A stretch of 64,000 nucleotides of DNA from Kastovskya adunca ATA6-11-RM4 (GCA_019359445.1 JAHHHJ010000012.1:62001-126000), one strand, 5' to 3'. Counted from the first letter of the stretch, positions 2,189-38,839 are shown. Program-made: numbers and translations. Notes: generated by a model from the sequence alone, not told the origin.

Positions 2189-5100
2189 CTAGAGTTCTGC
2201 AAGCAGTTCGTCCAGCTCTTTCGAGCTAAACTGCATTTGTGGGAAGTCTGAGGGCGTGTAGCCTCCAGCTTCGGGAGACTGACAGTGAGTAATTAGGTCG
2301 CGCAACGCTTCCACAAAACTCTGAGCCAGACTCTCAATCGTGCTGCGGCGATGAATGTTCTCGCTGTAATTCCAATCCAGTCGGAGTTGACCGGAAACAA
2401 TTAACCCGTTAATCACCAGCAACCGATTCCGGCTTCCCTTTGAGGTGCGTTCTTGTCCACAAGACTCTTCAGCCGGGGCAAATAGTGAGGATTCTGATAA
2501 AAGTTGGTCAAACTGCCCCAAATAGTTAAATTTCACTTCCGGCTGCGGCAACGCTTCTATTTGCTCCCGCAATTCCCGGTTTCCGTTGAGATAACGCAGC
2601 ACACCATAACCGATGCCTCGATTTGGAAGACCCCGCAGTTGCTCTTTAACTGCTTTCAGCGCCTCGACTGGGTTGGATGCGTCCCCAATATCCAACAGCA
2701 CGGGAAAATGGGTGGTAAACCAGCCAACGGTACGGGATAGGTTTACATCGTTGAAAATATCTTCTCGTCCGTGACCTTCCAGTTCCACCAGCAGGGACGG
2801 CTCACCTGTCCACTGTGCAAATGATTGTGCGAGTGCCGTCATCAATACATCGTTGATTTGGGTGCGATAGGTGGCTGGAACTTCCTGGAGTAGAGCTTGA
2901 GTTTCTTCGACACTGAGTTCTACTGATACCGTGCGCTCTGATGCCACTGTGTTGTCGCAATACTGCAAGAGAGACCTCTCCCCCAGCTCCTCTCCTGCAA
3001 GAAGAGGGGAGTCCGACTCCCCTCTTCCCTCGTAGGGAAGGGGGGCTGGGGGGGTTAGGTCAGCCTTATCTAAGTAGTATTGAGTGTTGTCGCCCCCTAC
3101 ATAGTCCACTGGCAAGCGGGGAACTGATGTTCGAGCTTGAGCCAACCAATAGTCCTGCTCTTGCTGAACAGCTTCTGAATGCGCGTAATCCCTCAGTCTT
3201 TCCGCCCAATGCTTGAACGAAGTCGTTTTGGATGGTAGGGCAATTGCTTCACCTCGACTTAGCTGTTCGTAAGCAGTTTGGAAGTCTTCCAGCAAAATTC
3301 GCCAGGAGACGCCATCAACGACTAAGTGGTGAATGACAATCAGCAGGCGTTGAGAATCACCCAGATTAAACAGAGCCACCCGCATCAGCGGTTCTTCTGA
3401 TAGGTTTAGGCTCGTTTGGAGTTCAGTTGCTGCTTCCTCGATGGCTGCTTTTTGCTGCTCTGGCGACAGTACCGACAAATCCAGGTATTGAAATGGCACC
3501 ATCCCGTTGAAATCAGCATTAATCTGTTGCCAACCGGATTCAGCCTCAACAAACCGTAGGCGCAGAGCGTCGTGGTGTTCTAGCGATCGCTGTAAAGCCT
3601 TCTGCAATAGCATTGGGTCAAGCGCTTGTTTTACTTGCAGCAAAACCGCTTGGTTCCAGTGGTGGGAGTCAGGCTGATTTTGTTCAAAAAACCAGTGCTG
3701 AATCGGGGTGAGGGGGACTGAACCCGTTACCCGCCCTTGTTCCGCCATCACACCCTGACTCAGGTTAGCCACGGCGGCGAGTTCAGCAATCGTCTGGTTT
3801 TCAAAAAGTTGCTTGGGAGCGATTTCTATGCAAACTTGATGCGCTCTAGCAACGATTTGAATGCTAATAATGGAATCGCCGCCTAATTCAAAGAAGTTGT
3901 CGTGAATGCCTACTCGCTCGACCTTCAGGACTTCCGCCCAGAGGTTTGCTAGTTTTTCCTCTGTAGGAGTGCGCGGTGGTACATAAGCCTCTTTTAACTC
4001 AGGTCGGGACGCATCTGGTGCTGGCAGCATTTGGCGATTGACTTTGCCATTGGGTGTCAACGGTAGAGCCTTGAGCTGCACGAAAAACGACGGCACCATA
4101 TATTCTGGCAACCACTCCAAGAGGAAGCTTCGCAACTCACTGCTAGTCGGAGCCGATTTGTGTTTGGGTACTACATAAGCCACTAGGCGCTTGTTGTCTG
4201 GTTCATCTTCCTGCACTATGACGGCGGTTTCACTGACGCCAGGGTGTTTCAACAAGGCGGCTTCAATCTCTCCTAGCTCAATGCGGAAGCCGTGTATCTT
4301 GACTTGGCGATCAATTCGTCCGAGAAACTCAAGGGTTCCGTCGGGTAAGTAGCGGGCTAAGTCCCCGGTTTTGTAAACCCGTCCAGAAATAAAAGGATTA
4401 TTGATGAATTTCTCGGCAGTCAGTTCTGGTCGATGCAGATAGCCGCGTGCTAACCCTGCACCGCCAATATGCAGTTCTCCTGGTACACCAATGGGAACGG
4501 GTTGCCCATTAGAGTCGAGCAGATAGATTTGGGTGTTGGGAATGGGACGACCAATGGGAACTGTGCTGCTTTGACCTAACCCCCCCAACCCCCCTTCCCT
4601 GCAAGGGCAGGGGGGAGTCCGGCTCCCCTCTCCTGCAAGGAGAGGGGCTGGGGGAGAGGTATTCCTTGCACTATTGGGAACAGTGGAAGCAAATTTGGCA
4701 ACGGATTTGGTAGTGGATAAATTGTTAGTGATTGCATAGGTAAGAACGCCGACGGTGGCTTCGGTTGGCCCGTAGTGGTTGAGAATTTGGCATTCTGGTG
4801 CTAACTGCTGAATCTGTCTGATTAAGTCCCAACTACAAGCTTCACCTCCGAGTACTAGTCGCTGGCGAGGTAGAAGTTGCTGGGGATTTTCACCAGTCAG
4901 TAGGGCTTTCAGGTGAGATGGAACAATCTTGATGCAGTCGATGGGATGGCGCTGGAAGTAGTCGGCTAGGGCTTGCGGATCAGAAGCGCGATCGCTACAT
5001 ACTATATGCAAACAACCACCACTACATAGAGCCGGGAAGATAACTGTATTACCCAAATCAGCGGCAAAGGTGGACACCGTTGCATAACTAGCACCAGTAG

Positions 5101-7027
5101 GAAGATTGATGGTTTCCTGGATGCTGTATAGATAGTTGAGAAGTTGCTGATGCTCAATAGCAACGCCTTTAGGGACACCAGTAGAACCAGAGGTGTAAAT
5201 GGCATAGACTAAGTTCTCTGGTTTAACGTCGCTAGTTGGATTGCCACTGCATTCTCGCTCTATCTTCTCCCAGTCTGTATCCAGGCAAATAATAGTTCTT
5301 TGTTCTTGGTCATTCGTCAAAAGTTCTTTGCTCTTAACCAATGACTCTTGACTAATCAGCAATGATTGAGCCTCTTGCAACCGCAGAGCAATGCCAGAAG
5401 GGGGTAAGGCGGGGTCTAAGGGAAGGTATGCTCCCCCAGCTTTGAGAATGCCGAGCAATCCGACAATCAGGTCGAGGGAACGTTCTACAAATAGCCCCAC
5501 CAACACATCCGGCTTCACTCCCAATTGTTGTAGGTAATGAGCTAGTTTGTTCGCACGAGAGTTGAGTTCGCGGTAGGTCAGTTGCTGCTCTTCAAAGACA
5601 ACAGCAATGTTATCCGGTGTCCTGGCGGCTTGGTCTTCAAATAGTTTGTGAATGCAGGCTTCTTTGGGATAATCAACAGCCGTGTGGTTGAATTCAATTA
5701 ATAGCTGCTGTCGTTCGCGATCGCTTAAAATATTTAAATTAGACGCCGCCGCTTCTGGCTTACTGATAATGCTTTCTAGTAAGGTCGAAAACCGTTCTGC
5801 CAGACGTTTAATATCATCTTCTAAAAAATAATTACTATCATATTTAAATGCAGCTACGATTGAGTCATCGTTACGATCACAGGAAAGTTTTACCTTAAAT
5901 CTCTCAAGACAGATGTAGTGTTTGGAGAGCGAAAAATGGACATTAGACTTTAAGGATTGAGATGACCATTGTTCATACTCGAAGCCAAAAGGTAAAAAGG
6001 CTACATCTATACAATGCTCCAGCTCAGTAAAGTACTCTTGCCATTCGTAAGCCTCATGAACCGATTGATTAACTTGAGCGAGCAACTCACTGAATTTAGA
6101 TTCAGCCTCGAAGTGGCAAGTTAAGGGTAAATGCTTGGCGAATAATCCTAGCGATCGCTCTAGCTCTTCATAGGGACGACCATCGAATGCCGTACCGATG
6201 ATAATATCTTGCTGTCCAGTCAGCCGCCACAGTAGAACCTGCCAACATGTTAGTAAGACTGTAGAAACCGAAGTTTCACATTTTTGAGCTATTGCTTCAA
6301 TTTTGGCAACGACATCAGGCTCAACTTTACACTCAAGAGAATTGAATTCAAATTGAGCGGGAACATTACTCAGTTTGTTCTCAAAGGGTAGAGCTAAAGT
6401 TGCTAGGGCAGAAAAATCCTGTTTGCTCCAGTATTCTTTGCCAGCTAATCCATCCTCATCTTCAAGTAATTGATTCTGCCATTCGGAAAACTGAACGTAT
6501 TGCACGACTTCATCTTCATCCGATAGTTCCTCACCTTGAAGAGAAGCGGTATAAGACTGGCTAATTTCCACCACCAGATTTTTGAGTGTTTTACCATCCG
6601 CACAAATTGCTGGCAGGCTGATGAGCAAAATATGCTTTTGGGCTGACAGTATCAGCAGGTAAAAACGTAATAAGGTTTGTTCAAAATTTAGCTCTTGCTG
6701 TCGTTCTTCCTGAAGGATTTCCTCAATTTTGAATTCCTGTTGTTTGGAATCTAAACCGCTCAGATTGATATCACGACAGCAGAGGATACTGCTATCCGCA
6801 ACGACTTGAAGCGGCGCTTTAATTCCTGGCTTGCGCTGAAAGGTTGTCCGCAGAATTTCATGCCGATTGATGACATTTTGCAGAGCTATCTTCAAAACTT
6901 CTGGATTAAGATTGCCTTCGATGAGGATAGCACCTTGAGTCTGATAAGCAAGACTATCTCGTTGCAACGACCATAGCCGCTTTTGTTGAGGAGAAAGTTG
7001 AAATCCCTCAATTATTTGAACTGCCAT
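2189..7027 (-). CDS. NRPS module: degenerate C ('interface'-like) - A (Asp-like) - PCP - E
   Basis: A 1612-residue module. The N-terminal condensation-like domain (~1-430) has LPAICADG near residue 141 where active C domains have HHxxxDG, so both histidines are missing. The A domain follows (TSGSTG ~616). Its pocket residues read K278, V299, G301, H322, V330, G331, the second half of the Asp code, but the A4 region is FAADLGNT and lacks the usual Asp235. A carrier domain (LGGDSI, Ser ~1051) and an epimerization domain (VIHHLVVDG ~1236) complete it. The upstream protein ends C-TauD, so I infer that its C domain forms the peptide bond while this degenerate domain docks the hydroxylase, giving D-beta-hydroxy-Asp. 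Repeats are inserted in frame at ~786-817 and ~1322-1351. GGAGA lies 8 nt before the ATG. A 125-bp gap separates it from the upstream gene, the longest gap inside this operon. Confidence 0.92.
2976..3059 (-). repeat. In-frame palindromic repeat inside the E domain
   Basis: Two adjacent GC-rich palindromes, in the pattern CCCCCAGC...GCAAG...GGGG and CCTCGTAGGGAAGGGGGGCTG, encode a low-complexity stretch ([22 protein letters not shown]) between epimerization-domain motifs. The same DNA pattern occurs at 4574-4660 and 22514-22605 and in spacers. Confidence 0.8.
4574..4660 (-). repeat. In-frame palindromic repeat inside the A domain
   Basis: A double GC-rich palindrome placed between A-domain cores A5 (HYGPTEA) and A6 (VPIGRPIPN). 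It encodes [12 protein letters not shown] and GGLGGLGQ-type residues and keeps the frame. It lies in a surface loop region of A domains, so it is probably tolerated. Confidence 0.8.
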
Positions 7028-7152
7028 TAATTTCTCCTATTCTTTGTGTCTGCTCTTGTTTCGCTATTAAGACAACAAAGGAATTGAAATAGGGTAAAAG
7101 TCAAAATTCACTGATTTAATACTACTACAAAAGTCGCTGATAATTTCCTCTA

Positions 7153-10100
7153 TTAAAGATTTATCATTTCCCCCATTGCTACTACAATCTTTCGCGAACC
7201 AACATAAGGATTGCGACTATGGGCGGCCAACAAATTATCCAACATGAGGATGTCTCCTTTCTGCCAAGGAAAACTAATTTGCGACTGCTGATAGATTTCA
7301 TTAATTTCCTGGATAACTGATTCTTCAAGAGGAGAACCATCGCCGTAATAAACATTACGTGGTAGCTTTTCTTCCCCAAACAGCGACAACAGAGAATCTC
7401 GAACGGCTGAGTCTAAGAAGGATAGATGATGCAACTGAATTTGATTGAAAAAGACCAGTTCACCAGTTTTTGGGTGTTTGGCGATCGCGGGTCGAACTTG
7501 GCGAGTTCTTAACCCCTTCCCTGGAAGCCATTCAAAATCAATTCCCGCCTTGTCGCAATACTCTTCAACCACTGCTTTATCTGTGGTTCTAAAAAAGTCT
7601 TGCCAGCTTACATCTAGCCCTTCGATGTAGTTGCGGACATACATCAGCTGCTTATTAGCCAACTTTTCTCGCAGTTTTGGATCGAGAAGTTGATACATCT
7701 TCCGGCAATCTACAATTGGCGTTTCTCCACCTTGCTGCGCGGGTTGGACGCAGAAAAACCAAATTTTTAGAGGAAAACGTTGCAGGTGAGAACTTTCGTT
7801 ATGGAACAAAATGGCTTTGTCTGCCGGATAAGGAGTAGAAGCATAAACTTTTCCGCCAACGCCTTCCCGTGGTAAGTCGCCATACTCACCGAATAACTCC
7901 GGACAAATGGCTTGAGCAACCGTTTCAAATTCCGATGCTGAATTAACACTAAAGCCTCGGAAGAGAATCGCTCCGTGTTTGAGTAACTGGGTTTCTATAA
8001 ATTCGCGATCGCTTTTCGCCCAATCTACAAAATCAATTTCTCCGTCAGTGGGTTGGACTACTAAAGGTAACGTTTCCCCTGGGGTCAGGTAATCAGTTTT
8101 AATTAAGTCTCCTTGAGGCAAACTTACAGCTTTGGGTTTAACGCTTTTAAATTTGTTGAACTTGGTCTTTTTGCGTTGTTCTTGTGCTAAAAGTTGCTGT
8201 TGCTTTTCGGTTTCAGAGAGCATTTCTAGTGTCTTAATAGGGGTATCGGGTTGGGCAACAATGCTGCTCAATAGCATTTCAAAGTGACCTGACATCCGAG
8301 TGATGGTTGAGTCATCAAAAAGGTCGGTGCTGTAGTTCCAAGTCCCAACAATTCCTTGCTCCGTTTGTTCCATAAACAGAGCTAAATCAAACTTCGCCGT
8401 TCCGGTTTCAACCTCAATCGGGGTGAGGGTAAGCCCGGAAAGCTCCAAACTGGGCATGGGGGCATTTTGGAGGACAAATAACACCTGAAATAGGGGAGTA
8501 TGGTTGAGATTTCGCTCTGCACCTAGAGCCTCTACCAACTTCGCAAAGGGCACGTCTTGGTGAGCATAGGCTCCTAACGTGACTTCGCGCACCCGACGCA
8601 GCAACTCCCGGAAACTGGGGTTGCCAGATAAGTCGGTACGCAAGACTAAAAGGTTGACGAAGAAACCAATGAGTGGTTCTAGTTCGCTGCGGTTGCGGTT
8701 GGCGACATCGGTGCCGACAACGATATCGTCTTGATTGCTGTAGCGGGACAGTAGCGTCTGAAAGGCAGCCAGCAGGAGCATGAATAGAGTAACTCCTTCC
8801 TGGCGGCTGAGGGTGGCGATAGCGAAGCGCTGCTGCGAAGCGCAGATCGCATCACTCAAGTCTTTGGGAAGTACAAAGCGACTGGTAGCACCTCGAAACG
8901 TCTGAACTTCAGGACGCGAGCGATCTGTGGGTAACTTCAGCCGGGAAGGAGCGCCACCCAACTGCTGCTTCCAGTAACTTAGTTGAGCATCCAATGCTTC
9001 CCGGAGTAACCATTCCTGTTGCCACACAGCAAAGTCTGCATATTGAATGGGCAGTTCTGGGAGGGGTGAAGGTTCCCCCCTGGTAAATGCTTTGTAGAGT
9101 GCTGCGACTTCCCGGACGAGTACCCCCATTGACCAGCCATCACTAACAATGTGGTGCATCGTCAACAGCAGAATATGCTCAGTTTCGCCTAATTGCAGCA
9201 GCGTTGCTCGCAGTAATAGATCTTGCTCCAAATCGAAGGGGCGTTGAGCTTCCTCCACCGCCAGCCGTTGAATTTCAACCTGTTGCTCGGCTTCGGGTAA
9301 CTCGCGCCAATCTACTATCGGTAGCGGTAGAGTCATGCTAGGAGCGATAACCTGAATCGGTTGCTCGTTCCCCATCGCAAAGGTAGTGCGTAAGGCTTCG
9401 TGGCGGCGGACAATTTCGTTAAAACTCTGTTGCAATGCTGGCACGTTCAGCACGCCAGTCAGGCGCACGGCAGCAGAAATATTGTAAGCAGAGTTACCGG
9501 GAGCAATGCGATCGAGGAACCACAGCCGCGCTTGGGCAAAGGATAAGGGCAACTCCCCAGAACGGGAAACGGGTACTAGGGGCGGTATTTGCTGTTCCAA
9601 TTGGGTTGGACGGGTTGCCTCAATTCCTTGACTCAGTTCGGCTATAGTTGGCGATTCAAATAGACAGCGCAAGGGCAACTCCACCTGAAACGTATCCCGT
9701 ATCCGAGAGATTAGCTGAGTAGCGAGTAAGGAATGTCCTCCCAATTCAAAGAAATTATCGTCGATGCCAACTCGTTCTAGGTTGAGGACTTCTGCCCAAA
9801 GGTTTGTCAGTACTTCCTCAACCGGGGTTCGAGGTGCTACAAAGTCCGTTTCCCCTGCCAGCATCCTTGTGTCTGGCGCGGGTAAGGCACGGCGGTCTAC
9901 TTTACCATTAGGTGTCAGTGGTAGAGCAGAAAGCAGCACAAAGGCAGCAGGAATCATGTAGTCAGGTAGCTGCTTTTTCAGGAATTCCCGCAGTTCATTC
10001 GATTTTGGATTTTGCTCCCCCCTTAATAAGGGGGGGATGGGGGGGTGGGATTTTGGATTGGGGGATTGCTCATGAAGGACAATGTAGGCAACTAGGCGCT

Positions 10101-12912
10101 GGAGTCCGGGGCTATCTTCCCTAGCCAGAACAACTGCCTGTTCCACGCCTGGGTATTGCGCCAACGCCGTCTCAATTTCTCCCAGTTCAATGCGGAAGCC
10201 GCGAATTTTTACCTGATGGTCAATTCTCCCTAAGTAATCGATGTCTCCATTAGGGAGATGACGCGCCAAGTCTCCAGTTTTGTAGAGGTATTCTCCCCTG
10301 CTCCCCTGCTCCCCCGCTCCTCCGCCTCTTTGAAAGGGATTGGAAATAAACCGTTCGGCAGTTAATTCAGGGCGATTGAGATAGCCACGGGCTACCCCCG
10401 CTCCACCGATGTACAGTTCGCCGGGAACTCCAATAGGAGTAGGTTGCAAGCAGTGGTCTAGTATGTAAGCTTGAGTATTGGCAATCGCACGACCAATAGG
10501 AACTAACCCATCTCCAGACTTCACCTGATAGAGGGTAGACCAGATGGTAGTCTCTGTTGGGCCGTACAGATTCCATAGAGAATCGCAGCGAGTCAGCAAC
10601 TGATTCGCCAATTCCCGCGATAAAGCCTCACCCCCACAAAGTATTTTGAGCGTCTTGTCACCCTGCCACCCAGCCGCTAACAGCAGTCGCCAAGTCGCAG
10701 GTGTTGCTTGCATCACTGTAGCGCCAGAGTGAGTGAGCAGCTCTGACAACCGCCTGCCATCAGCCGCTACTTCCCGACTAGCGATGACCACACGCGCACC
10801 AACAATCAGAGGTAAGTAAAGTTCTAAACCAGCAATGTCAAAAGATAGCGTGGTGACACAAAGGAGTCTATCTTGCTTGGTCAATCCTGGCTTAAGACGC
10901 ATGGAACAGAGGAAGTTAACCAGCGCACGATGGGAAATTTGTACGCCCTTAGGCTTGCCCGTTGAACCAGAGGTATAAATTACATACGCCAAGTTGGAAG
11001 AATTTAGGCTTTTGACTCCCCCCGTTGACCCCCCTGTGTCCCCCAACGATAAACGCTGTTTCTTATACTCCCCCCTTGCTAAGGGGGGTTGGGGGGGTGA
11101 ATTTTCGATTAAGCTGCAATCATCGGCTTTTATTGCTTCCCCATCAGCATCCAAACAAATTATTTCCGCTCTGTGTTCGGGAAGTATTTCTAAAAGCCGC
11201 TGTTGCGTCAGCAGCACCGAAACTTGAGCATCCTCCAACATGAAAGCCAATCGCTCTTTAGGATAGGCAGGGTCTAGAGGGACGTAAGCGCCGCCAGCTT
11301 TGAGAATGCCGAGGAGGCCGATAAGCATCTCCAAAGAGCGCTCCACGCAAATTCCTACCAGCACCTCTGGTTTCACACCCAGCATTTGCAGGTGGTGCGC
11401 TAGTTGATCGGCTCGTTGGTCGAGTTCTCGGTAAGTTAGCTGTTGGTCTTCAAAGACTACGGCAATGGCATCAGGCGATCGCTCAACTTGCTCCTCAAAG
11501 AGTTGGTGAAGGCATCGATCTTGAGGATATTCAGCTTCAGTATCATTCCACTCTTCTAGCAGTTGCTGCCGTTCGCCTTCGGTCAACAGCGATAATTCAC
11601 AAAGGCGCTGCTTTGGATTGGCAACCATGCTTTCCAGCACGGTTTGGAAGTGACCTAACATTCGGGTAATGGTTGCACTATCAAACCGACGGCAATCGTA
11701 CAAAATCTTCAGTACCAACTCCGAACCAGGTAACGCGACAAAGGTTAGAGGATAGTTCGTCTTTTCAAACGCACGAACATTACCAATCTCTAGCTCTGCG
11801 ACGCGCTCCCTATGGTGCGCCTCTACGGGGTAGTTCTCAAAAACCACAATACTGTCAAACAGGGGCATATCCCTGGGGACATTACTCCACCCCTGTATAT
11901 CCACTAGCGGACTGTACTCATACTGACGTGCCTCAGTTTGTTGAGCTTGGAGTTGCTGTAGCCAGGTCACAAGAGACTCTTCAGAAGCCACCTGCACTCG
12001 TATCGGTAGGGTATTAATAAACAGTCCCACCATAGACTCTACTTTGGCTAGGGCAGAGGAACGACCAGAGACGGTCGCCCCAAATACCACGTCTTCCTCA
12101 CCGCTATAGCGACTTAAAAGCAAAGCCCAAGCTCCCTGCACTAAGGTATTCAGCGTTAGATGTTGCTGTTGTCCTAGTGACTGTAATGCTGCTGTTGTTC
12201 TGGTTGATAGCCTAATTTCCTGCTCCTCGTAGTCTTCCTTCTGGTCGGGCAACTTCCGAAAAACCTGGTCTACGCTTAACGGTGTCGGAGCTGTAAAACC
12301 CTTAAACTTCTCCCGCCAAAACGCTTCTGCCTGAGACAAGTCCTGTTGCTGTAACCAGGCGATGTAGTCGCGGTAAGGACGAGGGCGTTCTAACGAGAGT
12401 TGCTGATCTTGGCAGAAGGCTTCGTAGTAAGCAATGACTTCCTTAAAGATTAATTGAGTAGACCAGCCATCGAGCAGTAAATGGTGATGGCTCCAGATCA
12501 AGTGATAGGTAGCCTCTGTTAGCTGGATCAGGGTTAGGCGCATCAGCGGAGCCTTGGACAGTTCAAAGCCTTGCCTTCGCTCTGCTTGTAGTAAATTCTT
12601 CAGCCGTTCTTGTTGCTCTATGGGGGAAATTCCCTGCCAGTTGTGTTCTTCCCAGGGCAGTTTCACATGCCGCCCCACGACTTGCAACGGCTTCTTAACC
12701 TTTTCCCAGACAAAGGCAGTTCGTAAGATTGAATGCCGATCTATCACCTGCTGCCAAGCTTGGGTAAATGCCGAAACGTTCAACCTTCCAGAAAGGTCAA
12801 AGCTCATTTGTTCGACATATACCCCAGATGATGGAGCGTAAAGGCTGTGGAACAGTATCCCCTGTTGCAGAGACGATAAAGGATATGCGTCTTCAATCGT
12901 TTTGACACTCAT
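7153..12912 (-). CDS. NRPS: C - A (Gly) - PCP - C - TauD/SyrP-like hydroxylase
   Basis: A 1919-residue protein. Order: C domain of the type that follows an epimerase (HHLLLDG ~144); A domain (TSGSTG ~647) with pocket D-I-L-Q-L-G-L-I-W, the glycine code; PCP (LGGHSL ~1056); a second C domain with an intact motif (HHIVSDG ~1254) but no A domain after it; and from ~1580 to the end a TauD-family Fe(II)/2-oxoglutarate dioxygenase. Its iron ligands are visible as HNE (~1706; the H-x-E form) and the distal His in AAHSRNP (~1899), followed by the 2-oxoglutarate-binding Arg region. Such fused hydroxylases act on carrier-bound Asp in NRPS siderophores. The start overlaps the previous stop (ATGA) and has a strong ribosome site (AAGGAGGAG). 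Repeats are inserted in the A domain (~601-637, ~947-967). The terminal C-TauD pair most likely works with the next protein. Confidence 0.93.
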   Translation of the reverse strand: MSVKTIEDAYPLSSLQQGILFHSLYAPSSGVYVEQMSFDLSGRLNVSAFTQAWQQVIDRHSILRTAFVWEKVKKPLQVVGRHVKLPWEEHNWQGISPIEQQERLKNLLQAERRQGFELSKAPLMRLTLIQLTEATYHLIWSHHHLLLDGWSTQLIFKEVIAYYEAFCQDQQLSLERPRPYRDYIAWLQQQDLSQAEAFWREKFKGFTAPTPLSVDQVFRKLPDQKEDYEEQEIRLSTRTTAALQSLGQQQHLTLNTLVQGAWALLLSRYSGEEDVVFGATVSGRSSALAKVESMVGLFINTLPIRVQVASEESLVTWLQQLQAQQTEARQYEYSPLVDIQGWSNVPRDMPLFDSIVVFENYPVEAHHRERVAELEIGNVRAFEKTNYPLTFVALPGSELVLKILYDCRRFDSATITRMLGHFQTVLESMVANPKQRLCELSLLTEGERQQLLEEWNDTEAEYPQDRCLHQLFEEQVERSPDAIAVVFEDQQLTYRELDQRADQLAHHLQMLGVKPEVLVGICVERSLEMLIGLLGILKAGGAYVPLDPAYPKERLAFMLEDAQVSVLLTQQRLLEILPEHRAEIICLDADGEAIKADDCSLIENSPPQPPLARGEYKKQRLSLGDTGGSTGGVKSLNSSNLAYVIYTSGSTGKPKGVQISHRALVNFLCSMRLKPGLTKQDRLLCVTTLSFDIAGLELYLPLIVGARVVIASREVAADGRRLSELLTHSGATVMQATPATWRLLLAAGWQGDKTLKILCGGEALSRELANQLLTRCDSLWNLYGPTETTIWSTLYQVKSGDGLVPIGRAIANTQAYILDHCLQPTPIGVPGELYIGGAGVARGYLNRPELTAERFISNPFQRGGGAGEQGSRGEYLYKTGDLARHLPNGDIDYLGRIDHQVKIRGFRIELGEIETALAQYPGVEQAVVLAREDSPGLQRLVAYIVLHEQSPNPKSHPPIPPLLRGEQNPKSNELREFLKKQLPDYMIPAAFVLLSALPLTPNGKVDRRALPAPDTRMLAGETDFVAPRTPVEEVLTNLWAEVLNLERVGIDDNFFELGGHSLLATQLISRIRDTFQVELPLRCLFESPTIAELSQGIEATRPTQLEQQIPPLVPVSRSGELPLSFAQARLWFLDRIAPGNSAYNISAAVRLTGVLNVPALQQSFNEIVRRHEALRTTFAMGNEQPIQVIAPSMTLPLPIVDWRELPEAEQQVEIQRLAVEEAQRPFDLEQDLLLRATLLQLGETEHILLLTMHHIVSDGWSMGVLVREVAALYKAFTRGEPSPLPELPIQYADFAVWQQEWLLREALDAQLSYWKQQLGGAPSRLKLPTDRSRPEVQTFRGATSRFVLPKDLSDAICASQQRFAIATLSRQEGVTLFMLLLAAFQTLLSRYSNQDDIVVGTDVANRNRSELEPLIGFFVNLLVLRTDLSGNPSFRELLRRVREVTLGAYAHQDVPFAKLVEALGAERNLNHTPLFQVLFVLQNAPMPSLELSGLTLTPIEVETGTAKFDLALFMEQTEQGIVGTWNYSTDLFDDSTITRMSGHFEMLLSSIVAQPDTPIKTLEMLSETEKQQQLLAQEQRKKTKFNKFKSVKPKAVSLPQGDLIKTDYLTPGETLPLVVQPTDGEIDFVDWAKSDREFIETQLLKHGAILFRGFSVNSASEFETVAQAICPELFGEYGDLPREGVGGKVYASTPYPADKAILFHNESSHLQRFPLKIWFFCVQPAQQGGETPIVDCRKMYQLLDPKLREKLANKQLMYVRNYIEGLDVSWQDFFRTTDKAVVEEYCDKAGIDFEWLPGKGLRTRQVRPAIAKHPKTGELVFFNQIQLHHLSFLDSAVRDSLLSLFGEEKLPRNVYYGDGSPLEESVIQEINEIYQQSQISFPWQKGDILMLDNLLAAHSRNPYVGSRKIVVAMGEMINL
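10015..10048 (-). repeat. In-frame palindromic repeat near the A-domain C-terminal subdomain
   Basis: A single copy of the palindrome CCCCCCTTAATAAGGGGGG plus flank encodes HPPIPPLLRGEQ between A-domain cores A8 and A10. It is flanked on both sides by a short direct repeat encoding NPKS. Confidence 0.8.
11015..11099 (-). repeat. In-frame palindromic repeat between A2 and A3 cores
   Basis: Two palindromic units encode NSPPQPPLARGEYKKQR and SLGDTGGSTGGVKS just before the phosphate-binding loop of the A domain. The paralogous A domain at 27383-27483 carries almost the same insertion at the same place, so the two modules share ancestry or have exchanged sequence. Confidence 0.8.
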
Positions 12913-15900
12913 CGGGTTGCTCCTCCTTCAAACTCAACCATGCCCAATACTGCATCGAGTTCGTCTTGTCCAAGCTGTGCCAGTGGGAAGTCTGAAGGCG
13001 TAAAGCCGCCTACATCAGGAGACTGATAGTAAGCAATGAGCGATCGCAACGCTTCCACAAAACTTTCTGCCAGCCTCTCAACGGTGACTCGTTTGTGAAT
13101 CGTCTCGCTGTACGTCCAATGCAATTGCAGTTGGTTCTCCACCACCAACCCGTTGACTTCTAGCAAATAGCCGCGACTTCCCTTGAGGCTATGAGCAGAT
13201 CCACTAGACTCGTTTGCCAGTCGAAATAGAGGCGATCCTGACAAAACGCGATCGACCTGACCCAGGTAGTTGAAAAGTATCTCAGCTTGGGGACGTTCGC
13301 GCAGTTTTGTCGTAATGTCCGCGCGATCGCTAAGATAGCGCAGCAGACCGTAGCCGATACCTCGATTGGGAATGCGGCGTAGCTGTTCCTTGACTGATTT
13401 CAACGCCTCCCCTGGATGGGAAGTCTCCTCCAGATTCAACAGGATGGGAAATACAGTCGTAAACCAACCTACCGTGCGCGAGAGATCCACCTCCTCGAAG
13501 AGTTCCTCTCGCCCGTGTCCCTCTAGGTCAACGAGCAGAGACGGCGAACCCGTCCACTGGGCAAAAACTTGCACCAAGGCAGTTAGTAGCACGTCGTTAA
13601 TTTGGGTATTGTAGGCTTGCGGTACTTCCTGTATCAGAGCTTGGGTTTCCTCTGCGCTAAGCGACACCGATAGGGTGCGGGCTGAAGCCTCGGTGTTGTC
13701 ACCCGACCGATAGTCTACTGGTAGCGGGGAGACTCGCGTGCCGGATTCGGCAAGCCAATAGTTCAACTCTTGCTCTAGCGTTCCCGATTTTGCATATTCT
13801 GTCAGTCGCTCTGCCCAATCCTTGAAAGAGGTTGTCTTCGAGGGTAGATGAACGCTCTCCCCACGACTGAGTTGCTGGTAAGCCATCTGTAAATCCTCCA
13901 GCAAAATCCGCCACGAGACACCATCCACCACCAGATGGTGGATGACGAGTAGCAAACGCCCCGGTTTGTTAGCTCCAAGGTCAAACAAAGCGACCCGCAC
14001 TAAGGAACCCTCTGACAGGTTTAAGCTAGCCTGCAATTGGGCTGCTGCCGCTTCAATTGCCGCTCCCTGCTCCAATTCCGACAGCGCCGACAAATCCACC
14101 CGTGTTAAGGGTACGGTTTTGACAAAATCAGCGATCGCTTGTTGCCAACGGGATGCCTGCTGCTCAAAACACAAACGGAGTGCATCATGGTGTACTAGCA
14201 GAGACTGCACTGCCTTATCTAATACCTCTGGGTTCAGTGCTTGCCGCAGTTCCAGCAAAACGGCTTGGTTCCAGTGGTGCGGTTCTGGAAGCTCCTGCTC
14301 AAAAAACCAGTGTTGGATAGGAGTAAGAGGCGCTATACCCGTTACTAAGCCCTGTTCTGCCTGCGGTGTCTGGTTCGTACCTGCCACTGCGGCTAACTCG
14401 GCAATTGTCTGGTACTGAAACAGGTGCTTGGGGGCAAGCTTAAGACCTGCCTGATTAGCTTGGGAAATAATTTGAAGGCTGAGGATAGAATCCCCACCTA
14501 GTTCAAAGAAGTTATCTTCTACTCCAACCGACTCCCGTCTCAGAACATCGCTCCAGATTCTGGCTAGCACTTGCTCGACGGCAGTACGGGGTGGCACAAA
14601 GGTTTTTTCTAGCTCGGATCTGCCTGTGTCAGGGTCAGGTAGTGCCTGACGATCCACCTTACCGCTGGGTGAGAGCGGCAATGCTTCTAAAATTACAAAG
14701 GCAGAAGGCACCATATAATTGGGCAGCTTTTCCTCTAAGAAGCGGCGCAGGTCAGTAATCGTGAGTGTCGGCTCTGGATCGAGGACTGTGTAAGCTACCA
14801 ATCGCTTAGAATTGGGTTCATTCTCACGAACGACAACCACATTCGCCCGCACTCCTGGATGTTGCCCCAGAACAGCCTCAATTTCTCCCAACTCAATGCG
14901 GAAGCCCCGGACTTTTACCTGGTGGTCGATACGACCGAGAAACTCAATGTTGCCATCGGGGAGGTAACGGGCTAGGTCGCCAGTCTTGTAGAGGCGGCTT
15001 CCGGGTGCGTCGTTGAAGGGATTGGGGATGAAGCGTTCCGCCGTCAGTTCGGGGCGGTTGAGATAGCCCCGTGCTAGTCCTTTACCGCCGATGTGCAATT
15101 CCCCAGGTACGCCGATAGGAACAAGCTGCCCCTTACAGTCGAGTAGATAGATCTGCGTATTAGCGATCGCACGACCAATGGGGACAATAGGTAAATTGCT
15201 TTGGCGATCGCACTTCCAGAACGTGACATCAATGGCAGCTTCGGTCGGACCGTAGAGGTTGTGCAGTTCCGCATCCAGACGCGCAAAGAATCGTTGTTGG
15301 AGTTCCTTGGGTAGTGCCTCACCACTGCAAATAACACGGTTGAGAGATGTACACGCCTCTAGTCCTTGCTCTTCCAGAAAAATCTGGAGCATAGAGGGGA
15401 CAAAATGGAGTGTGGTGATTTGCTGGGTAGCAATCAGCTTGACTAGGTAGGCGCTGTCCTGATGACCTCCCGGTTGGGCAACAACCAGACGCGCTCCATT
15501 CAGCAAGGGCCAGAAAAACTCCCAAACGGATACATCAAAGCTAAAAGGGGTCTTTTGCAGAACCCGGTCTGTTTCCGTTAACAGATAGGCATCCTGCATC
15601 CAGAGCAAGCGATTACAGATTCCCTGGTGGGTGTTCATTGCCCCCTTGGGTTTGCCTGTAGAGCCAGAGGTATAAATAACATAGGCGAGATGGTTAGCTG
15701 TCACCCTGCTAATTGGGTTTTCTTGGCTCTGCTGAGCAGTAAGCGAAGCTATGCCCGAAGGGCTTATCGCATCCCAGTCTGTATCCAAACAAATTACTTT
15801 AGCTGGATGAGCAGGCAATGTCTCCAATAACCTTGCCTGGGTAAGCAGCACTGGCACCTGAGAATCTGAAAGCATGAAGGCTAGACGTTCTTGAGGGTAG

Positions 15901-17642
15901 CCTGGGTCAAGCGGCACGTAAGCTCCATCAGCCTTGAGGATAGCCAGCAGCCCTACAACCATCTCTAGCGATCGCTCTACGCAAATTCCCACTAGCACAT
16001 CGGGTTTCACTCCCAGCCCTCTCAGGTAGTGCGCCAGTTGATTAGCTCGCTGATTGAGTTCCCGATACGTTAGCTGTTGGTCTTCAAATACCACTGCCAC
16101 AGCATCAGGTGTCCGCTCTACTTGGGCTTCAAATAGCTGGTGAATGCGTCGATCCGTCGGGTAGTCTGCCTGAGTTTGATTCCACTCCAAAAGCTGTTGC
16201 TGCTCGGCTGATGTCAACAGCGGTAAGGTACTCAGAGATTGGTCGGGGTTCGTAACAATCCCTTCTAACAACGTCTGTAAATGCCCTGTCATCCGGGTGA
16301 TGGTGTTCGCATCGAATAAGTCGGTACTGTACTCCAGCGTTCCAACCAGTCTTCCCCCGACTTCCGTGACGCGCAGAGTCAAATCAAACTTTGTGGTGTC
16401 GTTGTCGATGTCTAGAGCATTCCACGTCAAACCTGACAGATCCAAGGCAGACATTGATACGTTGTCTTGCATGACAAACATCACCTGGAACAGAGGCGTG
16501 TAGCTCAGGTTTCGCTCTGGCTGGAGTTCCTCAACGAGCTTCTCAAAGGGCAAGTCCTGGTGGGCATACGCTCCTAAGGTGACTTCGCGCACCCGGCGCA
16601 GCAACTTCCGAAACGTGGGATTGTCGGATAGGTCAGTTCGCAGAACAAGGGTATTGACAAAACAACCAATTAACCCTTCTATTTCCGCTCGGTTGCGGTT
16701 GGCAATGGGCGAACCGACTACAACGTCCTCGCTTCCCGTGTAGCGGTACAGCAGTGTTTTGAATGCGGCGAGCAGGGTCATGAAGAGCGTGACATCTTCT
16801 TTTTGGCTCAGTGCCTTCAGTGCTTCGGTGAGTTCGGCAGTCAGGGAAAAGGATTGACTCGCACCTCGGAAGCTGGCAACGGCGGGTCGGGGGTAGTCTG
16901 TAGGCAACTGGAGGACGGAAAGGCGATCGCCTAATTGCTGCTTCCAGTAGGAGAGTTGATTCTGGAGTACATCTCCCTGTAACCACTGCTGCTGCCAAAG
17001 GGCAAAGTCCGCATAGTGGATTGGGAGTTCTGGTAGTGGTGAGAGTTGGTGGCGGTTAAAGGCGTCGTAAAGTGCTGTCAGTTCCCGAATCAGTATCCCA
17101 ATCGACCAGTCATCGGAAACAAGGTGATGGATGGCGAACAGGACTATATGCTCAGTTTCGTTTAAGCATAGCAATGTAGATCGCAGTAAGCGATCGCATT
17201 CCAAATTAAACGGTCGTTTTGCTTCCTCACGAGCTAACCTTAAGACTTCAGCTTCTCGCTCAACCTCAGAGAATTCCTGCAAGTTCACCACGGGTAAGGT
17301 TGAGGTCGAGGTAAGTGCGATCGCCTGAAAGGCTTGCCCATCAACTTTGACAACATTGGTTCGCAAAGCTTCGTGACGCTTGATGATTTCATTCAAACTC
17401 TGCTCAAACGCCGCCACATTGAGTGACCCTTTCAGGCGAAGGGCAGTAGAGATATTGAACAAAGGGCTGCCTGACATTAACTCATCGAGAAACCACAGCC
17501 TTGCTTGAGCAAAGGATAGTGGAACAGGGTCGCTACTGTTTCTGCGAGAAATCCGTTCAATAGGCGAAGAATCTACCCCTTTCTCTTTAAGCAACACCTC
17601 AAGCAGCGCACGCCGTTTAGCAGAAAGCTTTAAAGAACTCAT
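12909..17642 (-). CDS. NRPS module: C - A (Ser) - PCP - E
   Basis: A 1577-residue module that adds D-serine. The C domain (~45-480) has HHLVSDD (~174), with Asp in place of the usual final Gly. The A domain (TSGSTG ~659) shows pocket residues D-V-W-H-I-S-L-I-D, a close match to the serine code. The carrier domain has LGGDSI (~1051), the form usual before epimerases, and the E domain has HHLVVDG (~1238) and EGHGRE. No repeat insertions were found in this gene, unlike most of its neighbours. It follows the Cys module after a 20-bp gap, and its stop overlaps the next start (ATGA). Serine could be structural or could contribute a hydroxyl group; its role in metal binding is not shown. Confidence 0.93.
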   Translation of the reverse strand: MSSLKLSAKRRALLEVLLKEKGVDSSPIERISRRNSSDPVPLSFAQARLWFLDELMSGSPLFNISTALRLKGSLNVAAFEQSLNEIIKRHEALRTNVVKVDGQAFQAIALTSTSTLPVVNLQEFSEVEREAEVLRLAREEAKRPFNLECDRLLRSTLLCLNETEHIVLFAIHHLVSDDWSIGILIRELTALYDAFNRHQLSPLPELPIHYADFALWQQQWLQGDVLQNQLSYWKQQLGDRLSVLQLPTDYPRPAVASFRGASQSFSLTAELTEALKALSQKEDVTLFMTLLAAFKTLLYRYTGSEDVVVGSPIANRNRAEIEGLIGCFVNTLVLRTDLSDNPTFRKLLRRVREVTLGAYAHQDLPFEKLVEELQPERNLSYTPLFQVMFVMQDNVSMSALDLSGLTWNALDIDNDTTKFDLTLRVTEVGGRLVGTLEYSTDLFDANTITRMTGHLQTLLEGIVTNPDQSLSTLPLLTSAEQQQLLEWNQTQADYPTDRRIHQLFEAQVERTPDAVAVVFEDQQLTYRELNQRANQLAHYLRGLGVKPDVLVGICVERSLEMVVGLLAILKADGAYVPLDPGYPQERLAFMLSDSQVPVLLTQARLLETLPAHPAKVICLDTDWDAISPSGIASLTAQQSQENPISRVTANHLAYVIYTSGSTGKPKGAMNTHQGICNRLLWMQDAYLLTETDRVLQKTPFSFDVSVWEFFWPLLNGARLVVAQPGGHQDSAYLVKLIATQQITTLHFVPSMLQIFLEEQGLEACTSLNRVICSGEALPKELQQRFFARLDAELHNLYGPTEAAIDVTFWKCDRQSNLPIVPIGRAIANTQIYLLDCKGQLVPIGVPGELHIGGKGLARGYLNRPELTAERFIPNPFNDAPGSRLYKTGDLARYLPDGNIEFLGRIDHQVKVRGFRIELGEIEAVLGQHPGVRANVVVVRENEPNSKRLVAYTVLDPEPTLTITDLRRFLEEKLPNYMVPSAFVILEALPLSPSGKVDRQALPDPDTGRSELEKTFVPPRTAVEQVLARIWSDVLRRESVGVEDNFFELGGDSILSLQIISQANQAGLKLAPKHLFQYQTIAELAAVAGTNQTPQAEQGLVTGIAPLTPIQHWFFEQELPEPHHWNQAVLLELRQALNPEVLDKAVQSLLVHHDALRLCFEQQASRWQQAIADFVKTVPLTRVDLSALSELEQGAAIEAAAAQLQASLNLSEGSLVRVALFDLGANKPGRLLLVIHHLVVDGVSWRILLEDLQMAYQQLSRGESVHLPSKTTSFKDWAERLTEYAKSGTLEQELNYWLAESGTRVSPLPVDYRSGDNTEASARTLSVSLSAEETQALIQEVPQAYNTQINDVLLTALVQVFAQWTGSPSLLVDLEGHGREELFEEVDLSRTVGWFTTVFPILLNLEETSHPGEALKSVKEQLRRIPNRGIGYGLLRYLSDRADITTKLRERPQAEILFNYLGQVDRVLSGSPLFRLANESSGSAHSLKGSRGYLLEVNGLVVENQLQLHWTYSETIHKRVTVERLAESFVEALRSLIAYYQSPDVGGFTPSDFPLAQLGQDELDAVLGMVEFEGGATR

Positions 17643-17662: not shown

Positions 17663-20600
17663 TTAACTTAGTGTTTTTTCAGCCAGCATTTTGTCCACTT
17701 CGTCATCCGAAAGTTCAGCAAGACTCAACACCAGTTGAGCAATGGCTTCAACTTTGGCTCGCTGGGCTGAGTCTTGGAGAATTACCGCCACTTGCTCCGC
17801 TACGGTAGGTGACTCGAAGAAGTGTCGCAGGGGTAGCTCAACCTGCAAGGTTTCGCGGACGTGAGCCATAACCTGAGTAGCTAGCAGGGAGTTTCCCCCT
17901 AAATCCAAGAAAAAGTTGTCGTGAATTCCGATTTGCTCTACACCTAGAACTTCAGACCAGATGCCTGCCATGACCTTCTCAAGGGAGGTATGAGGCAGCA
18001 CAAAGGATTTTTCTGGCTTGGCAATGATTGTGTCAGGTTCAGGAAAAGCTTGACGGTCTATCTTGCCATTTGCAGATAGGGGCAGGGTATCCAGCCAGAC
18101 GAACGCAGACGGAACCATATATTCCGGCAGCTTTTCCCTCAAGAAACTTCGCAGTTCGTCAACCGCAGGGGCTTGCTCTTGGTCTGAAACCAGATAGGCA
18201 ACCAAGCGTTCTTGTCCTCGCTGTTCGCCAACTGCCTTAACAACTGACGCCTCCACGGCTGGATGCTCTACTAAAGCGGCTTCAATCTCCCCAGGTTCAA
18301 TGCGGTAGCCTCGAATTTTGAGCTGAAAGTCTGCTCGTCCTAAAAACTCAATCGTGCCGTCTGGTAAATAGCGCCCTAAATCTCCCGTTTTGTACAGCCG
18401 TTCCCCTGTGACTGGATGATTGATAAAGTTGGCGCGAGTCTTTTCTTCATTTCGCCAGTACCCCTTGGCTAGTCCCATCCCAGCACAGTAGAGTTCTCCT
18501 GGAACCCAAACAGGACAGTCTTCCAACGCTTCATTGAAAACGTAGTATTTTGTGTTGGCGATCGGGCGACCGTAGGGAATGCTTTTCCAGTCTGGGTTAA
18601 CGGCTTCCACTGGATACCAGATATTCCAAACTGTGGTTTCGGTTGGTCCACCGATACTGACTAGGCGAACGTTTGTTGCCAGAGCCTTCAATCGATTAGG
18701 CAACGTAACCGACAGCCAATCTCCTCCCAGAAATGTTAGGCGTAAATCTGGAAGCTGCACGTCAGAACGACTGGCGGCATAGTCTAACAACATCTCCATC
18801 ATCGGAGGTACGGAGTTCCAGACTGTGACCCGTTCCTTTTGCATTAATTCGAGCCAGTGAGCTGGGTCGCGTTGCGCTGAAGCGTCGGGAATGACGAGGG
18901 TTCCGCCTGCTGTCAAAAGACCGAAAATGTCATAGACGGATAGGTCGTGATTCAGAGCGGTGAGTGCTAATACGCGATCGCTAGAACTCACCTTAAACGA
19001 CTGATTGGTGTGAATCGCTAAGTTGACAACGCTCTGATGAGCCACCATAACGCCCTTGGGCAAACCCGTTGAGCCAGAGGTATAGATAACATAAGCAAGA
19101 TCATCGGGTTTTTGGACGGGTTCCAGAGGTTGGTCGCTTTCACCAGCTAGCTCCTCGTTGTCTAAACACAGACACTGAATTCCCTCTGGGAACTCTAAGC
19201 GCTCGCGCAAGTAAGACTGAGTTAAAACTAACTTCACTTCGCCATTCTCCAGCAGATACCAAAGGCGTTCTTTCGGTAATCCCGGATCGATGGGCAAATA
19301 GGCAGCACCAGACGCCAGCACACCCATCACACTGACAATTTGCTCCCAACCTTTCTCCATCACAATCGCAACCAAGGTGTTAGGCAATGCACCTAATTTC
19401 CGCAACCGATGACCGACTTGATTCGAGCGACGGTACAACTCTTCGTAGGTGAGGGTAAGGTGGGGTGTAATGACAGCAGCTTGCTGGGGACGCTGAGACA
19501 CTTGGGCAGCAAACAAGGTGTGAGCCAGCGTTTCTGGCATGGGAACGGCGGTGTCATTGATGGCTGTTCGCTGTTCCAACTGTTTGGGCGGTATTAACTG
19601 CCGCCTTTGTTCCTGCCAAGCCTCTTCCTCAGTTGCCAGTTGCCTTAAAAGACGGCAGAACGCATCAAACATATCGTCCACCAGTCCGGCAGGAAACATG
19701 TCCTCCACGCCATCCCAGTTCAGAAACAGAGAGTCTTCTGCCTCCATATATTGACAATCCAGCCAAACTTGAGGCGTCTGGCTAATGGTGTAAACCACCT
19801 CTCCTAACTCTTTGAATAAGGAGGCTCTTGAGGAATCCAAATGGCTACCTACGGTTTGAGGCGTGGTGGTAAATACAACGGGTGCGATCGCTCCTGTTGT
19901 TCTGCCCTGAATTTTGGACAGTTCTCGCAGCACTCTTACCCCACTGACATATTGGTGTTCTAGGTCTTTCCAGAGTTGTTCTTGCAAGCGTCTGGCTCGA
20001 TCCTGAAATGACTCTTGCCTGGAATTGTCTACTTCCAATAACGTAAATGAGGCAAACTCCCCGATGATGTCGTTGACTTGAGGATGTAACGGTAAACGAT
20101 TAAAACGCGGCACGTTGAGCGTGAACCGAGGACTCTTACTCCAAAGCGTCAGAACCTCAGCATAAGCAGCAAGCAAAATTCCCGTGGGCGTTAAACCTGC
20201 TTTCGCGGCACGCAACTTCAACGGCTGCCAGATTTCCCGCTCTAGTTTCGTATCCCAACTCTTGAATTGAGGTTGTGTCAGTGAACCCGGAGCTTTCGCT
20301 AGGACTAAATCCGGTGGTGGCGGTAATGTGGGAAGACGCTTCTGCCAATAGTCTAGGGAGCGTTGGAAGGTTGGGGATTCTTGGAAAGCAATCTCTTCTA
20401 AAACGTAGTCTCGGAAGGAAAGCTCTAGAGGAGGCAGGTTAATCTGGGGATTTTGGTAGAATTTCACCAAATCCTGCAAAAGAACTTGAGCGCTCCAGCC
20501 ATCAACGCATAAACCATCGACGCTGATATGCAGGCGAAAATGATGGTCATCGAGCTGAGTGGCGCAAATCTCAAATAGGGGGAACTGGTCAATCGGTAGA

Positions 20601-21157
20601 ACTTGGTGAGATAAGCGATCGCGAATCGCTGACAATTTAGAGGCAATAGTATCCGAGTCTTGTCCCCGCAGATCTAACAGTTCAATGTGATAGGGCGGAA
20701 CTTGTTCTAAAATCTGTTGCTGTCCATCCGAATGCACAACCGCTCGTAGCATGTCGTGACGTTCGACCAACTTCTGCCATGCCAGATTAAACCGCTCTAG
20801 GTCTAAATCGGTGCTTTCAATCTCGGTATAGACATGGATGGCAACATTCCCTCCCTCGAAGAAGCTATTTCTGCCAATCCAGTAGGCTTGCTGCATTTCA
20901 TTCAGGGGAAATGGCTGATGTCGCTCCGCTAAATTGGGCGTTAGAGTCGGCAGAGGTTGGTAACGAGCGCTTAGGCGGTCAAAATTATATTGATTGAGAA
21001 ACGTGAGGATTTCCGGTTTCCGCTCAGCCAGTTGAGCCTGCAACGTTGATGTCAACACACCCTTAGGAGCGCTACAGTGCAAGCGGTCGCCATCCACCCA
21101 TAACTTGACATCTAAGCTACTGAGATCGGAGAGAAACTCTTCTATTGTTGGTTTCAT
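17663..21157 (-). CDS. NRPS module: docking - Cy (heterocyclization) - A (Cys) - PCP
   Basis: A 1164-residue module predicted to add cysteine and close it to a thiazoline. The first ~55 residues resemble a TubC-type N-terminal docking domain, which suits a hand-over from the upstream PKS. The condensation-family domain has DGLCVDGWS (~213), matching DxxxxDxxS of heterocyclization domains rather than HHxxxDG. The A domain (TSGSTG ~694) has pocket residues D-L-Y-N-F-G-I-V-W, closest to cysteine codes (D-L-Y-N-L-S-L-I-W). The carrier domain contains FFLDLGGNSLL (~1088), one residue longer than the other carrier motifs here. No oxidase, reductase or methyltransferase domain is visible, so the ring should stay a thiazoline unless a separate enzyme acts. 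The start overlaps the PKS stop (ATGA). Confidence 0.92.
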   Translation of the reverse strand: MKPTIEEFLSDLSSLDVKLWVDGDRLHCSAPKGVLTSTLQAQLAERKPEILTFLNQYNFDRLSARYQPLPTLTPNLAERHQPFPLNEMQQAYWIGRNSFFEGGNVAIHVYTEIESTDLDLERFNLAWQKLVERHDMLRAVVHSDGQQQILEQVPPYHIELLDLRGQDSDTIASKLSAIRDRLSHQVLPIDQFPLFEICATQLDDHHFRLHISVDGLCVDGWSAQVLLQDLVKFYQNPQINLPPLELSFRDYVLEEIAFQESPTFQRSLDYWQKRLPTLPPPPDLVLAKAPGSLTQPQFKSWDTKLEREIWQPLKLRAAKAGLTPTGILLAAYAEVLTLWSKSPRFTLNVPRFNRLPLHPQVNDIIGEFASFTLLEVDNSRQESFQDRARRLQEQLWKDLEHQYVSGVRVLRELSKIQGRTTGAIAPVVFTTTPQTVGSHLDSSRASLFKELGEVVYTISQTPQVWLDCQYMEAEDSLFLNWDGVEDMFPAGLVDDMFDAFCRLLRQLATEEEAWQEQRRQLIPPKQLEQRTAINDTAVPMPETLAHTLFAAQVSQRPQQAAVITPHLTLTYEELYRRSNQVGHRLRKLGALPNTLVAIVMEKGWEQIVSVMGVLASGAAYLPIDPGLPKERLWYLLENGEVKLVLTQSYLRERLEFPEGIQCLCLDNEELAGESDQPLEPVQKPDDLAYVIYTSGSTGLPKGVMVAHQSVVNLAIHTNQSFKVSSSDRVLALTALNHDLSVYDIFGLLTAGGTLVIPDASAQRDPAHWLELMQKERVTVWNSVPPMMEMLLDYAASRSDVQLPDLRLTFLGGDWLSVTLPNRLKALATNVRLVSIGGPTETTVWNIWYPVEAVNPDWKSIPYGRPIANTKYYVFNEALEDCPVWVPGELYCAGMGLAKGYWRNEEKTRANFINHPVTGERLYKTGDLGRYLPDGTIEFLGRADFQLKIRGYRIEPGEIEAALVEHPAVEASVVKAVGEQRGQERLVAYLVSDQEQAPAVDELRSFLREKLPEYMVPSAFVWLDTLPLSANGKIDRQAFPEPDTIIAKPEKSFVLPHTSLEKVMAGIWSEVLGVEQIGIHDNFFLDLGGNSLLATQVMAHVRETLQVELPLRHFFESPTVAEQVAVILQDSAQRAKVEAIAQLVLSLAELSDDEVDKMLAEKTLS

Positions 21158-25884: not shown

Positions 25885-25914
25885 TAGCTTTTCCCTTCTC
25901 ACTACACTCAATCT

Positions 25915-31900: not shown

Positions 31901-32095
31901 ATGGAACGAAAGCAACTACTCTTGCGCCTGTTACTTGCAGGTTCAGGGGGTGTTTTGGCAGGGCTGCTCATTTTGACTGAGGTTGTACAAGCGCTGGGTG
32001 TGCAGCGTCATGACTTCAGCACAAACCTTGAGATGACTTTAGAAAGAGATGATGCCGCATCTGAAGGGTTGGCGGTGAGTGAGGTGAAGAAATGA
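31901..32095 (+). CDS. Small 64-residue protein with one hydrophobic segment
   Basis: The start is ATG after a GAGGAAAAAAG ribosome site, and the stop overlaps the receptor start (ATGA), so it is probably translated together with the receptor. The N-terminus is basic (MERKQLLLR), followed by a hydrophobic stretch (residues ~7-32: LLLAGSGGVLAGLLILTE) and a polar, acidic tail. This could be a single-pass membrane peptide or an uncleaved signal anchor. I recognise no family. Being first behind the Fur-box-like site, it is probably iron-regulated and connected with siderophore uptake. Confidence 0.65.
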   Translation: MERKQLLLRLLLAGSGGVLAGLLILTEVVQALGVQRHDFSTNLEMTLERDDAASEGLAVSEVKK

Positions 32096-34845: not shown

Positions 34846-34849
34846 TTCA

Positions 34850-38500: not shown

Positions 38501-38839
38501 CTATTGCTCTAGCCATGATTTGCGATCGCGACCCTTGGTCTCATACTTAATATCTTCTTTAGCGGTATCTATCAAGCTTTCAAATACGCTAGTCATTGCC
38601 TCAGATGTAGATTGCTTGGCGTTCGTAATTACATCAGGTTTAAATGATCCATTGTTGATAAAAATGTCAGTGGCACCAGGAGGCGGAAAACTATCCAAAT
38701 CTTGTACTACAGACTTTGTTAGATTTTGATGTATGTAAAAATTTATGTTTTCTGTAGTATCAAAACAAACGGGTTTTAAAACGCGACCGCTCCGGATGCT
38801 GCTGCTGTTTACTCTCGTCTTTACCTTACTGACAGGCAT
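38501..38839 (-). CDS. Possible hypothetical protein or gene remnant (112 codons)
   Basis: An open frame in the gap before the acylase and opposite its first codons. The part from ~residue 22 onward has ordinary soluble-protein composition (for example TENINFYIHQNLTKSVVQD and AMTSVFESLIDTAKEDI), while the first ~20 residues are only the antisense of the acylase signal peptide. A real gene would need an internal non-ATG start. No family was recognised; a decayed fragment is equally likely. Confidence 0.3.
   Translation of the reverse strand: MPVSKVKTRVNSSSIRSGRVLKPVCFDTTENINFYIHQNLTKSVVQDLDSFPPPGATDIFINNGSFKPDVITNAKQSTSEAMTSVFESLIDTAKEDIKYETKGRDRKSWLEQ

Follow-up and report, generated by a model that had tools for sequence, protein, structure and literature searches.

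A predicted beta-hydroxyaspartate module split between a C-TauD protein and an interface-domain protein in a cyanochelin-like siderophore cluster of Kastovskya adunca

Introduction

How could a single hydroxylation module operate when its parts are carried by two different proteins? This question is raised by a locus of Kastovskya adunca ATA6-11-RM4, which we analysed as one 64,000-nt stretch of DNA (GCA_019359445.1 JAHHHJ010000012.1:62001-126000; "the window" denotes this whole stretch). One NRPS protein encoded there ends in a condensation (C) domain followed by a TauD-type hydroxylase, and the next protein opens with a C-like domain in which the HHxxxDG motif is lost. A preliminary description had proposed that the catalytic C domain is supplied by the first protein, that the degenerate domain is a non-condensing interface domain, and that the arrangement is unusual.

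The pairing of an interface domain with a fused beta-hydroxylase (IbetaH_Asp) in siderophore NRPSs was described by Reitz et al. (2019), as relayed in PMC12971057, PMC12230676 and PMC7100376. In the systems as relayed there, a C-fold domain without the catalytic His precedes an Asp-specific adenylation (A) domain and the hydroxylase lies at the C terminus of the preceding NRPS, as in the window; unlike them, the window belongs to a cyanobacterial branch, has a hydroxylase close to that of cyanochelin and contains an epimerization (E) domain in the module. Cyanobacterial hydroxylases were named separately in a mining paper (PMC12971057), and the pairing with interface domains is here extended to them. 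According to a review, TauD domains are always located next to Asp-selective A domains (PMC8949500).

Results

Read along the minus strand, the assembly line begins with a starter protein with an acyl-AMP ligase, ACP, C, A (Thr code) and PCP (25915-31467), followed by a type I PKS module, KS-AT-KR-ACP (21154-25911); an NRPS with a TubC docking domain, a Cy-type C domain, A and PCP, for which a thiazoline unit is probable (17663-21157); a C-A-PCP-E protein with a Ser code (12909-17642); the 1919-aa C-A-PCP-C-TauD protein, with the Gly code DILQLGLIWK (7153-12912); the 1612-aa protein, interface domain-A(Asp)-PCP-E (2189-7027); and the start of a 1655-aa C-A-PCP-C protein (2-2167), which is completed in the adjoining record L011. 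The final C domain of this last protein serves a second hydroxylation pair (L011, 7705-15167), in which the C-ended protein is followed by a stand-alone TauD of 364 aa and then by a degenerate C-A(Asp)-PCP-E-TD protein whose motif reads PALCADT. Genes for an aminotransferase, FecCD permeases, an ABC ATPase and TonB come after the E-TD protein, and a TonB-dependent receptor, a periplasmic Fe-siderophore binding protein and an MFS exporter are encoded on the plus strand of the window (32092-37248). The traits of the cyanochelin type were all found: a lipid start, a PKS, a Cy module, two hydroxylase/interface Asp modules, reductive release and TonB/Fe-uptake genes. Judged by its gene content, the cluster is a predicted cyanochelin-like siderophore synthetase with two beta-hydroxy-Asp modules, one with a fused and one with a stand-alone hydroxylase. 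Near the siderophore genes, a PvdQ-like acylase is encoded at 38745-40877 (E 1.8e-73, under the curated cut-off), and an acylase is also present in the Leptolyngbya boryana cluster L015.

The cyanochelin B cluster ccs of Leptolyngbya sp. NIES-3755 (plasmid AP017310.1, here L012/L013) makes a seven-residue product in which positions 4 and 6 are beta-hydroxy-Asp; its authors ascribed the hydroxylation at position 4 to a hydroxylase fused to the NRPS protein that comes before CcsI (PMC12628792). Both clusters contain a fused TauD followed by interface-A-PCP and a stand-alone TauD followed by interface-A-PCP-E, together with a PKS, a thiazoline-type module, Gly before the first Asp, and TonB and Fe-uptake genes. 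They differ in that the fused-TauD module of cyanochelin B lacks the E domain present in the window, in that Phe occupies the position of the window's Ser, and in that the cyanochelin B line ends in a Gly-TD module, whereas the last Asp module of the window cluster itself bears the TD. The A-code columns, which were placed at the Stachelhaus positions, reproduce the published order Phe, Gly, Asp, Ser, Asp, Gly of cyanochelin B, and this agreement validates the codes read for the window.

Pfam identified two Condensation domains, AMP-binding, PP-binding and, as the last domain, TauD (residues 1622-1912) in the 1919-aa protein. Its second C domain (8194-9558, minus strand) is intact, with HHIVSDG at about 9136-9156, and is followed by TauD with no A domain, just as the preliminary description had stated. 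The span which that description gave to the split module, 2189-9200, is correct in its start and layout, but its end cuts into this C domain, which reaches about 9558. In the tree described below, the domain joined other C-before-TauD domains (SH-aLRT 99), and its sequence supports a role in which it would condense onto the Asp of the next protein. The fused TauD domain (7156-8133, minus strand), a predicted Fe(II)/2-oxoglutarate beta-hydroxylase, retains the HxE and the distal His of the metal triad and shares 69.7% identity with the cyanochelin B cluster's hydroxylase. It thus has the traits of an NRPS-fused Asp beta-hydroxylase, namely membership of the TauD family, the Fe-binding residues and a C-terminal position after a C domain. 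The predicted C-TauD structure consists of two well-folded domains joined by a low-confidence linker; with a pTM of 0.60 and this uncertain linker, the model gives TauD no fixed position and is compatible with a tethered hydroxylase. Action of TauD on the upstream residue was considered and rejected, because the upstream module has a code for Gly, which offers no beta carbon to hydroxylate.

The 1612-aa protein comprises a Condensation domain (residues 10-443), AMP-binding, PP-binding and a Condensation-type E domain matching TIGR01720. As the preliminary description had it, the protein opens with a degenerate C domain (5699-7006, minus strand), in which alignment places PAICADG instead of HHxxxDG at about 6593-6613, and continues with an A domain with the Asp code DLTKVGHVGK (4043-5641), a peptidyl carrier protein predicted to hold the Asp to be hydroxylated (3773-3958) and an E domain in which the catalytic motif HHLVVDG is intact (2258-3736), all on the minus strand. 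AlphaFold2 modelled the degenerate domain as a confident C fold (pLDDT 94.4, pTM 0.93); condensation domains matched it in a fold comparison, VIA having the highest Z (39.8, 416 aligned, rmsd 2.4), and the teicoplanin X domain was also among the structural matches. A search by sequence turned up no solved structure that bears the name of an interface domain. The traits of interface domains are present in the window: a C-superfamily fold, loss of the catalytic His, a position directly before an Asp A domain and a neighbouring beta-hydroxylase.

In a tree of 153 C-superfamily domains, which came from a quick search, has long branches in places (L029) and contains none of the sequences named by Reitz et al. 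under those names, 61 interface domains formed one side of a single branch (SH-aLRT 99), and the condensing C, C-before-TauD, E and Cy domains fell outside it. This clade spans phyla and includes the cyanochelin B domain and a Variovorax domain, probably that of variochelin; the window's domain lies inside it, nearest to that of Nostoc foliaceum. The phylogeny that the preliminary description had proposed therefore separates the degenerate domain from condensing domains. The catalytic His was kept in none of the 61 and the D of the motif in all of them, and their alignment revealed class-specific conserved residues. An Asp code was read in 111 of the 126 A domains located behind interface domains. 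The assignment to the non-condensing interface type is well supported by this His-less clade, by the TauD partner and by the Asp-selective A domain behind.

To see how general the split is, TauD relatives were gathered from plasmids and genomes and interface-domain relatives from 386 cyanobacterial genomes, and the domains were annotated by script. TauD was the last domain in all 78 C-TauD proteins. Apart from the window's, 74 had an NRPS gene downstream, and in every case the protein encoded there opened with a His-less C domain (48 in Cyanobacteria, 8 in Nitrospirota, 4 in Pseudomonadota, one each in Myxococcota and Acidobacteriota, and 12 in plasmid records, both cyanobacterial and proteobacterial); the records are related, so these counts are not independent, but the pattern nonetheless spans phyla. 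The C domain before TauD kept HH in 71 of 71 readable cases, which agrees with the earlier proposal that the previous protein supplies the catalytic C domain. When the interface domain was the sole query, it was present in 24 of the 386 cyanobacterial genomes, and 29 of the 30 loci fetched had TauD directly upstream. A C-led protein came after 37 stand-alone TauD genes; its first domain was degenerate in 27 cases and an ordinary C domain in 10. Within this survey, the split between TauD and the interface domain is the dominant layout in the five named phyla wherever TauD is fused to an NRPS C domain, and chance does not account for it.

The arrangement had been considered unusual, and this part of the preliminary description is not supported: what was thought odd is the rule in this survey, and the layout has been published for potashchelin (PMC7100376) and cyanochelin B (PMC12628792). 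In Halomonas sp. MG34, potashchelin synthesis involves FAAL-ACP-C-TauD (PtcB) followed by C-A(Asp)-PCP, and the TauD at the C terminus of PtcB was proposed to act on the Asp of the adjacent module, the product being L-threo (PMC7100376). The C-TauD end of one protein and the C-A(Asp)-PCP opening of the next are shared with the window, although the potashchelin system is proteobacterial and lacks the E domain of the window module. The split layout is therefore already known; the window is a further instance, and a fused hydroxylase before an E domain is its uncommon feature.

Among the fused-TauD modules whose downstream module could be read, only 7 of 66 have an E domain (the window, L033, L064, L068, L076, L082 and L093), and these seven fall in about four places on the TauD tree, the window grouping with L033 and L093. 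According to published stereochemical rules, to which exceptions have also been published, fused hydroxylases give the 3S configuration, so that an active E domain would lead to D-erythro (2R,3S) beta-hydroxy-Asp. If the rules apply, the window's fused module would make this residue, a reading to which we attach moderate weight; the combination of fused hydroxylase and E domain yields a clear stereochemical prediction. No report of (2R,3S) beta-hydroxy-Asp as a siderophore constituent was found in the siderophore literature compared here.

Discussion

Our analysis makes it very probable that the two proteins share one beta-hydroxy-Asp module of a cyanochelin-like synthetase, split at the usual place, in which the interface domain presents Asp-PCP to the upstream TauD. 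The A domain of the 1612-aa protein would load Asp onto its own PCP; the interface domain, unable to condense, would hold the Asp-PCP and the TauD that ends the upstream protein; TauD would beta-hydroxylate the carrier-bound Asp; the C domain before TauD would join the Gly-ending upstream peptide to the hydroxy-Asp; and the E domain would invert its alpha carbon. Direct support comes from the architecture, the loss of the catalytic His, the Asp code, the clade, the constant pairing with TauD, purifying selection and the cyanochelin B residue count. We infer that TauD physically touches the interface domain, that Asp is hydroxylated while bound to its carrier, and that condensation follows hydroxylation and precedes epimerization. 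The glycopeptide X domain (PDB 4tx2, 4tx3) offers an analogy as a domain with an inactive C fold that brings an oxidase to its substrate on the carrier; unlike the interface domain, it recruits P450s and sits before the terminal TE. Against the proposed mechanism stands one interface domain (L142) without TauD nearby. In addition, stand-alone relatives of TauD work beside ordinary C domains without an interface domain, and the interface domain is therefore not needed for this chemistry in general.

Distances between TauD domains were correlated with those between interface domains in fused pairs, although the two domains are on different proteins (r 0.85; 0.83 when the C domain fused to TauD was controlled for), and when partners were swapped within genomes at 17 loci with two pairs, the observed value was reached in 0 of 2000. 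Part of this correlation is accounted for by the common ancestry of each pair, and the TauD-A correlation was as high among fused pairs (0.87), indicating that TauD is paired with the interface-A module as a whole and that co-inheritance does not set the interface domain apart.

The boundary itself bears on what the degenerate domain does. All 102 well-placed degenerate domains were N-terminal and never internal, two others being start-site artefacts; a median of 6 residues followed TauD, the interface domain started at a median residue 8, and no other docking domain was visible at this boundary in the surveyed pairs. No natural protein seen in the survey had TauD and then an interface domain on one chain. 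The N-terminal position and the lack of another visible docking domain would also be expected if the domain served the subunit boundary or the A domain as a structural or docking platform and its role in hydroxylation were secondary; we regard this reading as unlikely, though a serious contender, since a hydroxylase partner accompanies the domain almost everywhere, stand-alone TauD included. The preferred role in hydroxylation and a docking role might be combined: because the subunit break is always flanked by TauD and the interface domain and nothing else resembling a docking element was seen, the TauD-interface contact could itself be the docking device, both hydroxylating the carrier-bound Asp and bringing in the upstream C domain, with the E domain then giving D-erythro (2R,3S). 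We offer this only tentatively.

That the domain is a dead remnant in a working protein, with TauD finding the Asp-PCP unaided, might be argued from TauD families that have no interface domain, some of which share a cluster with the fused type (L021, L024). However, the domain is kept and well conserved beside TauD across phyla and has class-specific conserved residues. Against its Symplocastrum orthologue (L033), its dN/dS is 0.195, and because this value lies within the range of the neighbouring domains (0.07-0.22), the domain is under purifying selection and not decaying; we regard a remnant as very unlikely. Some other tailoring oxygenases of the TauD fold act on free amino acids, and TauD could likewise make beta-hydroxy-Asp from free Asp for loading by the A domain; such a route is scarcely probable, given that the A code is that of plain Asp, nearly identical to CcsI/CcsL, and that TauD is tethered beside the module. 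For cupriachelin, moreover, an analysis of A-domain specificity pointed to hydroxylation of Asp after its loading onto the carrier (PMC8949500). Finally, the idea that the degenerate domain also condenses, by means of a non-standard active site, for which the C fold and the retained D of the motif might speak, was rejected as barely conceivable in view of the His-less motif, the separate clade and the cyanochelin B cluster, where seven canonical C/Cy domains and two degenerate ones stand against seven residues, so that the two degenerate domains do not condense. With fused and stand-alone versions of the module side by side in one genome, K. adunca is a good system for testing the role of the interface domain.

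Several loci depart from the common pattern. In L142, no TauD or other NRPS gene was found next to the start of an interface-A-PCP-E-C protein (3969-10076). Non-Asp codes behind interface domains, mostly with stand-alone TauD, included DSALIAEVW (L040, L125, L131, L139 and L141), SSRDxAxGI (L058, L078 and L103), DATKxGEVG (L015, L044 and L134) and DAWQFGLID (L051), and the code DAHI occurred with fused TauD in L018 and L019; such pairs suggest that other residues may be hydroxylated in cyanobacteria. A group of acidobacterial stand-alone TauD (L089, L092, L094, L096 and L101) is nested among fused TauD on the tree, yet precedes ordinary C domains, which suggests that this group may have lost the interface pairing.

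C-rich palindromic repeats (about CTCCCCCCTTNNNAAGGGGGGCTGGGGGGG) were noted in the window at 1294-1468, 2969-3061, 4562-4663, 10012-10047, 11017-11103 and 27451-27480, with further copies at 22513-22605 and 29009-29061. Those checked are in frame inside NRPS domains (C, A and E) and are translated as PPQPPLxRGE or as a second 10-residue string. In the 1612-aa protein, the copy at 2969-3061 forms an insert in the E domain and that at 4562-4663 an insert in the A domain, the latter being absent from the Symplocastrum orthologue.
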